Assembly: GCA_034620365.1 (NCBI GenBank)
Contig: JAQGEQ010000379.1
Span: 457,902-521,901, forward strand
Source of the DNA: Pegea sp. RAD2-039
Taxonomy: Eukaryota; Chordata; Thaliacea; Salpida; Salpidae
Length of the DNA stretch: 64,000 nucleotides
Direction: 5' to 3'
Part shown: one piece after another, positions 2,195 through 64,000 of the stretch
How positions within the stretch are numbered: position 1 is the first letter of the stretch
How the letters are laid out: each line of letters starts with the position of its first letter
Program-made: the position numbers and the translations under genes
Notes under the pieces: generated by a model
Told to the model about the DNA's origin: nothing
The model's database searches: none
The model's input: only the letters and a program-made list of their open reading frames with translations

Positions 2195-5100
2195 TCACAT
2201 CCATTCAACTTTATTTTTATTTTCCGATAAAACAACTTTTCCATCAACAACCAGATCAACTGCTTCAGGGTAGGTCACGTGTTCCGCTTTCTTGACGCGA
2301 TCTTCAAGCGTTGCTATGGTATCATCTGGAAGAACGGGAACAGACGATTGAGATATAATCGCTCCCGCATCCATCTCCTCCTAAAGATCAAAGATCAAAT
2401 AAAGAAGATAGAAGATGAGATGAGAACCGTGACAAAATGGACTGTACATCCAGATAACCGGACCCCAGATTCAAGGACTTGTTGATGAGCGTTGATCCCT
2501 TTAAAGAGTGGGAGGAGACTCGGATGGATGTTGATGATCTTACCTCTCCATTTGCTCACAAACCAATCTTTAAAGATGAAGATATCATTCGAAGAAGATC
2601 ATTTTCAAACTCACTTGAAAGAAGTCTCATAAATCCGGCCAAGCAAACAAATTCGACGTCATTCGCGTTCAAAACGCGATCGACTTCCTCATCAAACAAC
2701 ATCCGGGATTTAAAAGATCGATGATCAATAACCTAGATGATAAAAGTCATCAACGATCACGTGACATCTTCTCTTACTTTAGTTTTGATTCCGTATTTCG
2801 CTGCTTTTTGTATTCCTCCTGCGGAAGAAACATTTGAAATGATCAGAGGAACTTCAAAGTTGGAACTGATGGAAGAGAGGCTGTGCTTGACAATTGACTC
2901 CATGTTGCTCCCTGGAGAGCAATTGTAAAGTTTTGCTGAAGGTTCCAAAATGGCTTTTTATCAAGTTGGATTCGACCAATTTGTTGAAAATTAATGAAAA
3001 AGGAACCTGAACCAGAAATCAAAACAGCCACTTTCGTTTTTCTTCTTATCGTCTTCTTAATTTCGATATTTTTCTCTTTTGTTGCAAAAGTCTAAAAAGA
3101 TGATTAACAAATGAAGTAGGAGATGATATGACGTCATCAATTACGTCACAAGTATTTCAATAAACCTCGGTTTTGGTCAGATTAATTGCATCTTCGAAAT
3201 TATCAACTATGACGTCATCTTGTTTGCGCGATTTCTCTTCTACGATTCCAATCTTTCCGATCAGCAGTTCAGATGACTTCAAAGACTCGATGACGTCATC
3301 AGCAGCAGCGGAGTTGACGACGAGACACATTCCAACTCCACAGTTGAAGGTTTTCAACATTTCAGCTAAACATCAAAAGATAGAGATTAGAAGATGAAGA
3401 TCAGAAGATGAAGCTCAGAAGATAAAGATCAGAAGATGAAGATCAGAAGATGAAGATCAGAAGATGAAGATCAGAAGATGAAGATCAGATGATGAAGATT
3501 AGAAGATGAAGATCAGAAGATGAAGATCAGATGATGAAGATCAGAAGATGAAGATCAGAAGATGAAGATCAGAAGATGAAGATCAGAAGATGAAGATCAG
3601 AAGATGAAGATCAGAAGATGAAGATCAAAATACGAAGATCAGAAGATGAAGATCGAAAGAGGAAGATCAAAATACTAAGAAGATGAAGATCAGAAGATGA
3701 AGATACTTTTCGAGATGTTTCCTTTCATCGCAAGCCACTGAAATATTGGAGGAATCTTCCAGGATGCAGCATCAAGACGAGCTGAGAGATGATGAGGAAG
3801 AACTCTTGGAAGATTCTCAAGTAGTCCACCTCCAGTAATATGAGCACAAGATCTGACTCCAGGACATCTTCGGAGGACCGGAAGAAGATCTTTAACGTAG
3901 ATCTGAGTAGGTTGAAGAAGAAGATCTCCTATAAAAGATAAGGATCAGTAATCTCCCATGATCCCTAGATGAAGATCTACCAATTGTAATCTGAGGATCA
4001 AAAGGAGCAGCATCCTCATATTTCATCTCTGAAATCTCCAAAACTTTTCGAACTAAACTAAATCCGTTGCTATGAACTCCTGATGACTTCAACCCGATGA
4101 TGACGTCACCACATATGACGTCATCGACTCGAGGCATCGTGGTATCTCGATAGCGATCATAAGCGGCAACCGCAAAACCAGCGAGGTCATAGGTCTTATC
4201 ATGATACATTCCGGGCATCTCAGCTGTTTCACCTCCTATAAGTGATGACGTCATCAACTGTATGACGTCATCAGTTACTAACCAATCAGAGCACATCCAG
4301 CTTGTTGACAACCGCGCGCGATTCCCTTGATGACGTCACGAGCTACGTCACGATGTAGTTTTCCACAAGCAAAATAATCGAGAAAGAAAAGCGGCTCAGC
4401 GTTGTGAGTGATGACGTCATTGACGCACATAGCAACCAAATCGATTCCGATTGTTTGATGACGATTCATTGAATGCGCGATCTGGTGATGACGTCATCAA
4501 ACGAGGTGGTTGTCATGACAACGTGGTAACAAACCATCAATTTGGTTCCAACACCATCACAACCAGACACAAGAACTGGATGTTGATAACCGGATGCTCT
4601 AAGATCAAAAAATCCTCCAAAACCTCCGAGATCAGGATCACTCCCGTTCCTGGATGTTGATTGGACGATTGATTTTAAATCTTCAACCAATAAACTGCCT
4701 TCTTTGATATCAACTCCACTTTGAGCATAAGACAAAGATCTATAAAAAGATCTTCATCATCAGGACTTTTTTGATCCTCATCTTTACCTTCTGTTGATGA
4801 AATTGATTCCTCTGATGCCAATATCATTTCTGAAGATCGCGTTTTCGAAGCTAATCGCGTTCACAGCTTCCATAACACCTTGTCGAGCTTCTTCTAGTGT
4901 CGAAGCCAATTGCGTCACCGCAAGCACGCGCCCACCTGACGTCATAGTGACGTCATCACTCATTACTGTACCAGCTTCAAACACAAATGTCCCATCGCGC
5001 TCAGTGACGTCATCGATTCCATAAATCGGGAATCCTTTTTGATACTTGTACGGGTAACCACCTGACGCCATCACCATGGTGACAGATCTCTGATTTTTGA

Positions 5101-62710: not shown

Positions 62711-64000
62711 ATGTCTGATGTTGATATCTCACAATTGCCTTTAGAAGTTCGTGCTAAGCTTGCTGAGCTAGATTTGGAAATTTCTGAAGGTATGTTCTTT
62801 TGTAATTGAATATTTACAATTAGTAATAACAAATGAAATAATTGGTAGCAGCAGAATAGAAAATAATAATAAAAAGTTAAATTGTTATCTTATTTTCAGG
62901 AGACATTACTCAAAAAGGTTATGACAAAAAGAAAAATAAGTTACTGGAACCTTTCCTAAATTCAACGAAAAAAAGTAATTTTAAATTTTGTGTAAATAAA
63001 CCATTAAAAATTTCAATTAAGTCGAAATCTATTCATTCAATATGATTTTGTGAGGATAATAACCATGAAATTGAGAATGAAAGTTGATAAGTGAAATATT
63101 TTGTGTTAGAAGTTGTACTTTGTCGCTTTTTGTAGCAAAGTGAGTCAGAGAAGCTTTGAATTATTAATAGATGTCGATGAAAGGATTGAAATAGTGGTTT
63201 GAATTATAAGCGACAGTTGCTTTTTGTTTCTCTATTCCTAATACTTGTTATTACCTGATCACGTGACTTTCGATTTTTTATAGGTGCGGAAGCAATACGT
63301 AACAAGCAAGTGACGTCACAACCGCCTCGTCCTGAAGTCTCTCGTAATCGAGCTCCGAACTCTAAAAAGGTAGCGGATAGACGACAGAGATCTCGACGAG
63401 ATGATCGTTATAGATCAGGTGATGATAATGCTCATCTGCAGCATCCATTAAATCTTTTTTCTTTCAGACATTCACACGGAAGCTGTACAAGTCGCGCTCG
63501 CCAAACATCGCTCTAAACGAATCCCAGTTCTTCCTTTACCTGTTAAACGTCGATCTTTGATGTTTCATGGAGCTACCAGCAGCAGTTTAGGTGATAGTAC
63601 AGGTACATCTTCGTCTCTTCTACCTTCATTAGTTTATTTCATTTTGTGACGTCACGTAGACGATGACATCACGACTGATATATCGACGGGCGACGACGAC
63701 GGCTCGTTAAGACGAGCTAATATCTCATTGGATAGTTCATCGAGTCATTCGATGAGCGGCAGCCGGGATTTAGTCACTCCATCTCCGCGGTCGATGCAAC
63801 AAATCCCGAGAAGTGAACAACCAACGGTAAGATGGTTTGTCGATCCTCACCGCTTCTCAAATAAGTGTCCCAGGCTGCCCCTAGGACCACAATCAACGAA
63901 TCGCGACCCAATCTCTCGACCCCTACTCCACTCACACAGAAACTTGCCGACATCATGCCTCAGATCTTGCCAGGTACTAGCGTCTTCCACGATGACGTCA
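62711..64000 (+). CDS. DIP2: Disco-interacting protein 2, 5' exons (partial)
   Basis: DIP2 proteins have an N-terminal DMAP1-binding domain and two adenylate-forming (acyl-CoA synthetase-like) domains, and act in lipid metabolism and nervous-system development (family knowledge). Exons seen: 62711-62789, 62900-62974, 63284-63418, 63468-63602, 63660-63826 and 63874 to about 63973 (donor CAG/GTACT) or beyond. The start LPLEVRAKLAELDLEISEG, followed by DITQKGYDKKKNKLL, is the DMAP1-binding domain and matches animal DIP2 closely. Next come the conserved SDIHTEAVQVALAKH and KRRSLM, and a Ser-rich disordered stretch (GSLRRANISLDSSSSHSMSG). The adenylation domains lie beyond the window. TGACGTCA occurs in exon 3 (63311), in intron 4 (63647) and at the very end (63993). 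GC content rises sharply compared with the upstream 3.5 kb. Confidence 0.9.

Follow-up and report, generated by a model that had tools for sequence, protein, structure and literature searches.

We find that the palindromic octamer TGACGTCA, identical to the CRE of CREB/ATF factors, is present 27,792 times in the 105.7-Mb assembly compared to 969 copies of its reversed control ACTGCAGT (≈29-fold), and that it is concentrated in CpG-rich zones that cover portions of genes, i.e., upstream DNA, small introns (41–57 nt) and coding exons. Our best reading, to which we give about an even chance, is that these are arrays of bZIP sites that selection maintains in the CpG-rich zones of genes, probably as a chromatin or transcription mark. 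The genome-wide figures for the 14-mer TGATGACGTCATCA are 1,972 versus 0. The window, i.e., the whole 64-kb stretch of DNA analysed, holds 33 exact copies of TGACGTCA with 0.36 expected (mean of 100 dinucleotide-preserving shuffles, largest count 2), a density of 516 per Mb that is ≈2-fold the genome mean of 263 per Mb (0.26 per kb). Clustering is strong: nine 10-kb stretches of contig C1, taken at round positions and chosen without regard to the motif, hold five sites in 90 kb, and the density within zones is 5–16 per kb.

The initial annotation had counted about 33 octamers and proposed a genome-wide signature, to be abandoned if the genome count proved close to expectation with this window as an outlier. 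The computed positions reproduce its count and its tally by gene (13, 6, 5, 4, 1, 1 and 3), the lack of sites across 10.43–37.21 kb, and the arrangement of 18 copies as nine pairs 11–27 bp apart; with a ≈29-fold excess over the control, the genome-wide count is therefore not near expectation, and the signature holds. The identity with the CRE, the presence of sites in exons and introns alike, and a role wider than simple promoter use are likewise borne out, and two of its proposals, a selfish short insertion and the tracking of conserved multi-exon genes, are not.

Hand annotation and splicing place nine of the 13 GART copies in exons and four in introns; in SLC13, the eight paired copies all fall within introns, which are 41 or 54 nt long (Table 1). 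Gene bodies account for at least 23 of the 33 window sites, and six others lie close upstream of a presumed start codon. No copy of TGACGTCA is found in SLC7, a lectin-like gene or a WD40 gene, CLPB has a single copy over 1.4 kb, and the sites of GART and of an IBTK-like gene are confined to part of the gene. The motif thus does not simply follow conserved multi-exon genes, and its distribution is better matched by CpG-rich zones. Site number follows CpG o/e with a Spearman coefficient of 0.47 over 261 bins, and this relationship holds inside each GC class. Pfam returns no family for 12 of 20 ORFs scanned singly, both ORFs of locus L009 among them, so the label "cyclase-like" used below for a gene there comes from reading alone; Rfam on nine sources returns only tRNAs, and COX1 has no match in the assembly.

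Table 1 Occurrences of TGACGTCA in the window and the features that hold them
Feature	Position	Strand	Remark
TGACGTCA in presumed intron past last AIRS-domain exon of GART	3129..3136		Bounds by eye
Two TGACGTCA (3210, 3291), both read D-V, in GART C-terminal AIRS exon	3210..3298		Exon ~3168-3362, minus strand, from open frame
Two exonic TGACGTCA in GART, 15 bp apart	4101..4123		Alignment; gap-free there vs human GART
47-nt GT-AG intron of GART with two TGACGTCA (4246, 4263)	4236..4282	-	Splicing restores peptide of human chain
Two exonic TGACGTCA (4331, 4412) in GART, coding RDVI and NDVI	4331..4419		Alignment; gap-free vs human
53-nt GT-AG intron of GART with one 14-bp TGATGACGTCATCA (4486-4499) and second palindrome GTTGTCATGACAAC	4482..4534	-	Hand splicing
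Three exonic TGACGTCA (4937, 4948, 5005) in GARS C domain exon of GART	4937..5012		Exon 4788-5071, minus strand
Six TGACGTCA, 116 to ~400 bp upstream of presumed GART start codon	10149..10430		Start codon 10033, minus strand
41-nt GT-AG intron of SLC13 copy A with two TGACGTCA (37210, 37230), 20 bp apart	37205..37245	-	By eye; reading frame shifts across
54-nt GT-AG intron of SLC13 copy A with two TGACGTCA (37369, 37389), 20 bp apart	37354..37407	-	By eye
Exonic TGACGTCA in SLC13 copy A (SADDVSNAYF)	39365..39372		
TGACGTCA between the two SLC13 genes	41491..41498		No gene recognised there
54-nt intron of SLC13 copy B with two TGACGTCA (45308, 45328), 20 bp apart	45297..45350	+	
41-nt intron of SLC13 copy B with two TGACGTCA (45467, 45487), 20 bp apart	45459..45499	+	
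Lone exonic TGACGTCA in CLPB	56604..56611		
Three TGACGTCA (63311, 63647, 63993) in gene labelled DIP2 by the initial annotation	63311..64000		63647 within predicted intron 63603-63659

The consensus of the sites is TGATGACGTCATCA, the extended bZIP site. In a tally of 153 sites that pools both strands, position −1 is A in 68%, G in 25% and T in 2%, −2 is G in 47% and −3 is T in 62%; the R...Y flanks of a bZIP-site core (R at −1, Y at +1) are found in 205 of 245 sites, and 46 sites read GATGACGTCATC. A table in PMC9164029 gives FOS as GATGACGTCATCA (MA1951.1), FOSL1::Jun as ATGACGTCAT and CREB as TGACGTCA, and the genome has JUN-, CREB-, CREB3- and ATF/FOS-like bZIP exons as candidate readers. 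The zone variant spectrum (25 zones, 20.6 kb) is dominated by the exact word, with 177 copies vs 0.48 expected; the one-base variant TTACGTCA/TGACGTAA stands out (11 vs 0.77), CGACGTCA and TGATGTCA give 5 vs 0.49 and 10 vs 1.94, and the remaining nine variant pairs occur 0–3 times each. These in-zone ratios overstate, since it is the motif that delimits the zones, and since of the 18 zone coding sequences discussed below, 14 were picked for holding sites. The AP-1 7-mer TGACTCA is unenriched in the zones (5 vs 3.7); JUN/FOS, if the reader, must therefore use the CRE form only.

Pairs of sites prefer a spacing of 20–21 bp, with genome-wide counts at 16, 20, 21 and 26 bp of 210, 466, 416 and 127, and of 9, 23, 15 and 5 on contig C1 after arrays were collapsed by eye. 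Among the 14 pairs spaced at 20 bp in the examined loci, 12 are, by reading, inside GT-AG introns, and some tandem arrays have 20–21-bp units (C8:368056-368223, C3:890762-891249 and L009 6331-6580); small-intron length together with such arrays may give rise to the peak. Helical phasing in the examined loci shows at a 10.0-bp period (p = 0.0015), falls off at 10.25 bp (p = 0.064) and is not seen at 10.5 bp (p = 0.64), and the case from spacing therefore rests on the genome-wide counts.

In the exons compared, exonic sites align to homologues almost free of indels, and these copies were therefore made by substitution: the Pfam GARS_C match in the GART exon at 4788-5071 covers 91 residues vs 91 profile positions, a BTB match (L007) covers 71 vs 71 with five sites inside, and alignment to the human GART chain leaves a one-residue gap adjoining site 5005, the one exception to sites that cause no indel. 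No similar flank exists elsewhere in the sampled DNA for 234 of 246 sites, and eight of the 12 that share one come from a single duplicated gene; we thus find neither the sequence shared beyond the motif nor the indels of an introner or transposon-borne repeat, and a mobile or selfish element is spoken against for the bulk of the sites examined, the tandem arrays with 20–21-bp units being what favors it. The alternative source of the palindrome under the same heading, a codon or protein-repeat bias, must contend with copies in introns and upstream DNA and with the use of both open frames of the word (31 D-V, 20 T-S). DV dipeptides are indeed in excess in the 18 zone coding sequences (46 vs 15.5 expected, 34 of the 46 written GACGTC), with no such excess in nine other ORFs (13 vs 12.4, 3 of 13 written GACGTC), and coding bias alone is rejected on the latter ground; taken together, we regard a mobile element or coding bias as close to negligible in probability. 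An RNA-level function, in which copies pair and a stem joins the ends or splice sites of small introns, or in which the word is a splicing signal (UGAC as branch site), is improbable in our view. Because each copy is able to pair with any other, a small intron with copies close to its two ends would form a stem, and introns of 41–57 nt carry pairs in SLC13, GART, tankyrase-like (L008) and, by reading, RFC1-like (L024) genes and others. At least one site is found in 17 of 49 predicted small introns at loci chosen for the motif; four predicted two-site introns fold better than shuffles (mean z −1.5) and 15 one-site introns slightly so (mean z −0.54). However, 61 site-free predicted introns fold no better than shuffles or random windows, with a mean z of −0.2 compared to −0.29 for 120 such windows, which rejects intron hairpins as a general rule, and at loci not chosen for the motif only two of 31 predicted introns hold a site. 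These intron counts come from a rough codon-score method whose filter dropped 113 of 193 candidates, hand-verified introns with sites, e.g., 4236-4282, among them. Many sites are moreover exonic or upstream of GART, and the commonest variant, TTACGTCA, breaks the RNA pair and makes no wobble.

Two further alternatives invoke processes at the DNA level. If CpG methylation erased CpG words elsewhere, the motif could be what remains in unmethylated, bZIP-protected DNA, consistent with the correlation with CpG o/e and with the DNMT1-like ORFs encoded in the genome; yet the word is ≈370-fold above a trinucleotide model of zones that are themselves defined by it, a poor fit to CpG survival alone, and every other 8-bp palindrome in the zones falls far short of it (next CGCGCGCG, 3 vs 0.24, and GTCATGAC, 4 vs 0.41), making such survival bias decidedly improbable. 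The main rival to our best reading, which we consider rather unlikely, is a HIP1-like ratchet or molecular drive, in which germ-line repair, methylation or gene conversion favors TGACGTCA over its neighbors through a bZIP factor, methyltransferase or nuclease as recogniser, and copies accumulate wherever the protein tolerates them, the site bringing no benefit of its own. In favor of drive, sites occupy introns and UTR as they do tolerant codons and seem scarce in conserved exons (the cyclase-like gene of L009, by eye, and the SLC13 exons), those in the exons examined arose by substitution, and the exact word is far above every neighbor. A selection-free repair ratchet has been proposed for cyanobacterial HIP palindromes (PMC4390886), and CRE-like sites direct meiotic recombination in fission yeast (PMC9775316). 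Against drive stand the strong zoning, down to five sites in 90 kb, vs roughly one HIP1 site per 1000 nt in PMC4390886, the reasoning that conversion should lose rather than gain a recombination-initiating motif, and the C5 methyltransferases, of which the four loci inspected among 11 PF00145 matches look DNMT1- and TRDMT1-like rather than like sequence-specific enzymes. The SLC13 duplicates are uninformative on motif turnover, the two copies being too alike.

If selection-kept arrays are the correct reading, TGACGTCA, extended to (T)GATGACGTCATC(A), would be the recognition element for a bZIP dimer of the animal's CREB/ATF/JUN-FOS set and would have multiplied by point substitution, not insertion, in CpG-rich, presumably unmethylated zones of ~0.4–2 kb that take in upstream DNA, small introns, untranslated regions and tolerant exon parts. 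Dimers would bind the arrays, often two at 20–21 bp on the same helix face, and selection would keep the arrays, with binding holding gene parts open, unmethylated and transcribable, as a distributed gene-body mark rather than a set of single promoter switches. We infer the in vivo bZIP binding, the unmethylated state of the zones, binding as the cause of retention and the effect on chromatin or transcription. CREB binds no CRE that is methylated at the central CpG (PMC7532970). Some DNA-level force seems strong enough to bend protein sequences; selection on 5–16 sites per kb, amino-acid changes among them, exceeds, to our knowledge, the need of any known bZIP regulation, and the indifference to exon, intron or UTR resembles drive as much as function. 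We tentatively suggest, as a possibility on the doubtful side, an animal "highly iterated palindrome", in which the force exerted by a bZIP-type recogniser rewrote many genes, by synonymous and non-synonymous change, into a dense CRE code that marks open, unmethylated zones, with D-D-V and M-T-S peptides as a by-product. Were the arrays selection-kept, transcription-factor sites would be able to override protein sequence in many parts of an animal genome, and the code would offer a natural setting in which to test gene-body marking and escape from methylation; were drive responsible, HIP1 would have a parallel among animals, and this would be one of the few visible cases in which molecular drive works by point change. 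In both cases, a single 8-mer distorts the alignment of proteins, codon statistics and motif searches for this lineage. Among the matches listed from the open-access literature searched, which leaves most subscription journals outside, there is no report of a comparable case.

Known systems resemble this one in part. The CRE, to which CREB/ATF and FOS/JUN-ATF bZIP dimers bind, shares the core and the extended flanks (GATGACGTCATC), contains CpG and is bound by CREB in a methylation-sensitive manner, but is used as one or a few promoter sites, unlike the ≈28,000 copies here, at up to ≈16 per kb and also in exons and small introns. HIP1 (GCGATCGC) is likewise an 8-bp palindrome far above chance that spread through coding DNA via substitution, and HIPs are spread evenly through the genome. 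Like a HIP, the exact palindrome here is far above composition without its neighbors, TTACGTCA and CGACGTCA being moderately raised; unlike a HIP, it is not distributed at ≈1 per kb throughout but is zonal, with five sites in the 90 kb of contig C1 and 5–16 per kb inside zones, around a genome mean of 0.26 per kb. HIP1 is bacterial, occurs about once per kb and is tied to sequence-specific methyltransferases (PMC4390886), in contrast to an animal word that is zonal, has a bZIP-type consensus and accompanies DNMT1-/TRDMT1-like enzymes at the loci inspected. The PATCs (periodic An/Tn clusters) of C. elegans differ in sequence, and the likeness is in distribution only. They occur inside germline genes and introns. 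They are short-word non-coding DNA able to prevent transgene silencing (PMC7725773). At ade6-M26 and other CRE-like hotspots of fission yeast, an ATF/CREB dimer on an exonic CRE-like word opens chromatin, and the natural CRE of ade6 is unbound by Atf1-Pcr1 (both from PMC9775316). Here too a CRE-like word lies within coding exons; the hotspots, however, are single sites, not every CRE works, and such a hotspot should erode, not multiply.

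The window holds 33 exact copies of the palindrome TGACGTCA (hereafter sites), against 0.36 expected from 100 dinucleotide-preserving shuffles; this count, the site-free stretch and the nine close pairs reported in the initial annotation are all confirmed. Across assembly G000 (105,744,746 bases, 387 contigs), which contains the window at C22:457902-521901, the palindrome occurs 27,792 times versus 969 for a control with the same letters reversed, ACTGCAGT, and the 14-mer TGATGACGTCATCA occurs 1,972 times versus 0 for its reverse. Their distribution is clustered: only 5 (0.39 expected) fall within nine 10-kb stretches of contig C1 that were chosen at round positions, without the motif as a criterion, and motif-picked stretches hold up to 36 per 10 kb (maximum in locus L009). 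In total, 281,820 bases in 33 pieces with 246 sites were examined closely, 15 loci having been picked for the motif.

In 25 CpG-rich, site-dense zones (20.6 kb), which the motif itself defines, so that ratios within them are valid for comparing words and give no genome-wide estimate, a trinucleotide model with sites masked predicts 0.48 exact copies and we find 177. The non-palindromic variant TTACGTCA (11 versus 0.77), CGACGTCA (5 versus 0.49) and the CpG-decay form TGATGTCA (10 versus 1.94) are also raised there, and the remaining nine one-base variant pairs occur 0–3 times each; outside the zones TTACGTCA occurs 19 times versus 4.45 expected. The zones show no comparable excess of any other 8-bp palindrome and no enrichment of the AP-1 word TGACTCA (5 versus 3.7); a few words derived from short tandem repeats are raised (e.g., GGTTGCTA, 7 versus 0.12). 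Separately, a second palindrome, TCACGTGA, is in ≈12-fold excess over all examined loci (22 versus 1.87), also outside the zones, with 3 of the 22 within them.

GART, on the minus strand and spliced by hand through GT-AG introns of 48, 53, 47 and 52 nt, translates without stops, and its product matches PDB structures of human GART domains (2qk4, E 8e-25; 2v9y, E 2.5e-95); gene names other than Pfam or PDB matches were assigned by reading, and we take the host to be an animal on its gene set. By hand annotation, nine of the 13 GART sites are exonic and four intronic, with 3129, 3210 and 3291 placed from open frames only. All eight paired sites of the two SLC13 copies are, by eye, intronic, with a 20-bp spacing within each pair; they occupy 41- and 54-nt introns, and the reading frame differs on either side of these. 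The close similarity of the SLC13 duplicate suggests recent conversion.

Features of the window (window positions) and DNMT1-like frames elsewhere in the assembly (contig positions)
Feature	Position	Remark
Further SLC13 site	39365	exonic
CLPB site		exonic
Six sites		immediately upstream of GART
One site		intergenic
Three sites, gene called DIP2 in the initial annotation		one of three in a predicted intron
SLC13 genes	36.7-40.2 kb; 42.9-46.2 kb	inverted duplicate, close similarity across ~840 bp
Satellite in GART intron	5431-8348	113 bp, 25.8 copies
Short tandem array in GART	3372-3704	14 bp
Short tandem array in GART	9089-9362	15 bp
tRNA-Pro/tRNA-Ala tandem array	50167-55052	genes alternating, unit ~963 bp
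Reverse transcriptase-like gene fragment	598-1380	similar fragment adjoins the L029 frame (218-843 of L029)
DNMT1-like frame L030	C57:819728-821071	
DNMT1-like frame L029	C57:825001-826344	
DNMT1-like frame L031	C32	without PPCQ catalytic motif
Other DNMT1-like frames	C249; C52	

Nearly gap-free alignments indicate that the sites in the exons examined arose by substitution. The GARS C domain exon of GART, with three sites, aligns 91 residues to 91 Pfam positions and to the human chain with one single-residue gap, adjoining site 5005; the AIRS exons, with four, show no gap at sites against the human chain (e.g., human PHLERITEGDVVVGI); and L007, presumably an IBTK-like gene (named by reading; Pfam gives BTB), carries five inside a BTB match that pairs 71 residues with 71 positions. 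In 18 zone coding sequences D-V occurs 46 times versus 15.5 expected, 34 of them spelled GACGTC, a 3-fold excess that is inflated because 14 of the 18 were picked for having sites, and some may contain read-through introns; in nine other ORFs (three sites in total) D-V is as expected (13 versus 12.4), with 3 of 13 so spelled. For 234 of the 246 sites no similar flank was found elsewhere in the examined DNA, and the SLC13 duplicate accounts for eight of the other 12.

Site density follows CpG observed/expected (Spearman 0.47, 261 1-kb bins) and GC content (0.56), and sites track the CpG ratio within every GC class, some with just 1–2 site-bearing bins; bins at or above 0.8 hold 191 sites in 91 bins, versus 55 in 170 lower bins. 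In GART the ratio is 1.06–1.62 in site-bearing exons versus 0.12 and 0.00 in two out-of-zone exon stretches, with counterexamples in out-of-zone stretch 9715-10033 (1.02) and a site-free zone exon (0.48). Stretches of SLC7, a lectin-like gene and a WD40 gene carry no sites. CpG methylation is plausible in this genome given PF00145 matches that we take, by reading, to be DNMT1-like ORFs and a TRDMT1-like gene. The seven DNMT1-like frames are long and intronless (832–873 aa, three read), include an inverted pair ~5 kb apart, and resemble retrocopies or members of a mobile family. CGCG reaches 4.1 per kb at 6–30 bp from sites versus 0.38 beyond 1 kb, but composition accounts for much of this rise, since GCGC (2.2 versus 0.40) and GC content (0.40 versus 0.29) rise likewise. 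Of the CGCG words close to sites (e.g., AAACGCGAT), eight lie exactly 10 bp from the centre of a site; such words could represent a partner motif or reflect composition alone.

Genome-wide, 5,745 pairs of sites lie 12–42 bp apart, versus 0 for the control, and 10 of the first 59 pairs listed are spaced exactly 20 bp (p 1.8e-5 versus a uniform spread). Spacings of 16, 20, 21 and 26 bp occur 210, 466, 416 and 127 times genome-wide and 9, 23, 15 and 5 times on C1 (tandem arrays collapsed by eye); pairs thus prefer two helix turns over 1.5 and 2.5, which fits two dimers on one helix face. The 20-bp peak may partly reflect intron length, because GT-AG introns contain, by reading, 12 of the 14 pairs at that spacing in the examined DNA (four in SLC13, three in one L009 tandem array and one each in loci L002, L008, L023, L024 and L025); the other two are in an L009 array downstream of a stop codon.

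The likeliest reading, with about an even chance, is that the sites are bZIP binding arrays: candidate bZIP dimers would bind TGACGTCA arrays, and selection would maintain these within open, unmethylated gene zones. CREB fails to bind a CRE whose central CpG is methylated (PMC7532970). The occurrence of sites anywhere that the protein tolerates makes a HIP1-like ratchet or conversion drive the strongest rival, if a rather doubtful one. A role in RNA or splicing, which would account for the intron pairs, is a good deal less probable still: it leaves the exonic sites and the cluster upstream of GART unexplained, and site-free predicted introns fold ordinarily (mean z -0.2, n=61, versus -0.29 in random windows, n=120).

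Possible readers for such bZIP arrays exist, as 12 exons match PF00170, with no sign of expansion in that search of the genome; the four read are presumably JUN-like (L019), CREB-like (L020), CREB3-like (L021) and ATF/FOS-like (L022). Over 153 sites, strands pooled, position -1 is A in 68%, G in 25% and T in 2%, -2 is G in 47% and -3 is T in 62%, giving the flank-extended consensus TGATGACGTCATCA. ATF7 and JDP2 share this extended site. Among known motifs, PMC9164029 lists GATGACGTCATCA for FOS and TGACGTCA itself for CREB, and PMC9930257 gives GGATGACGTCATCC for ATF4.
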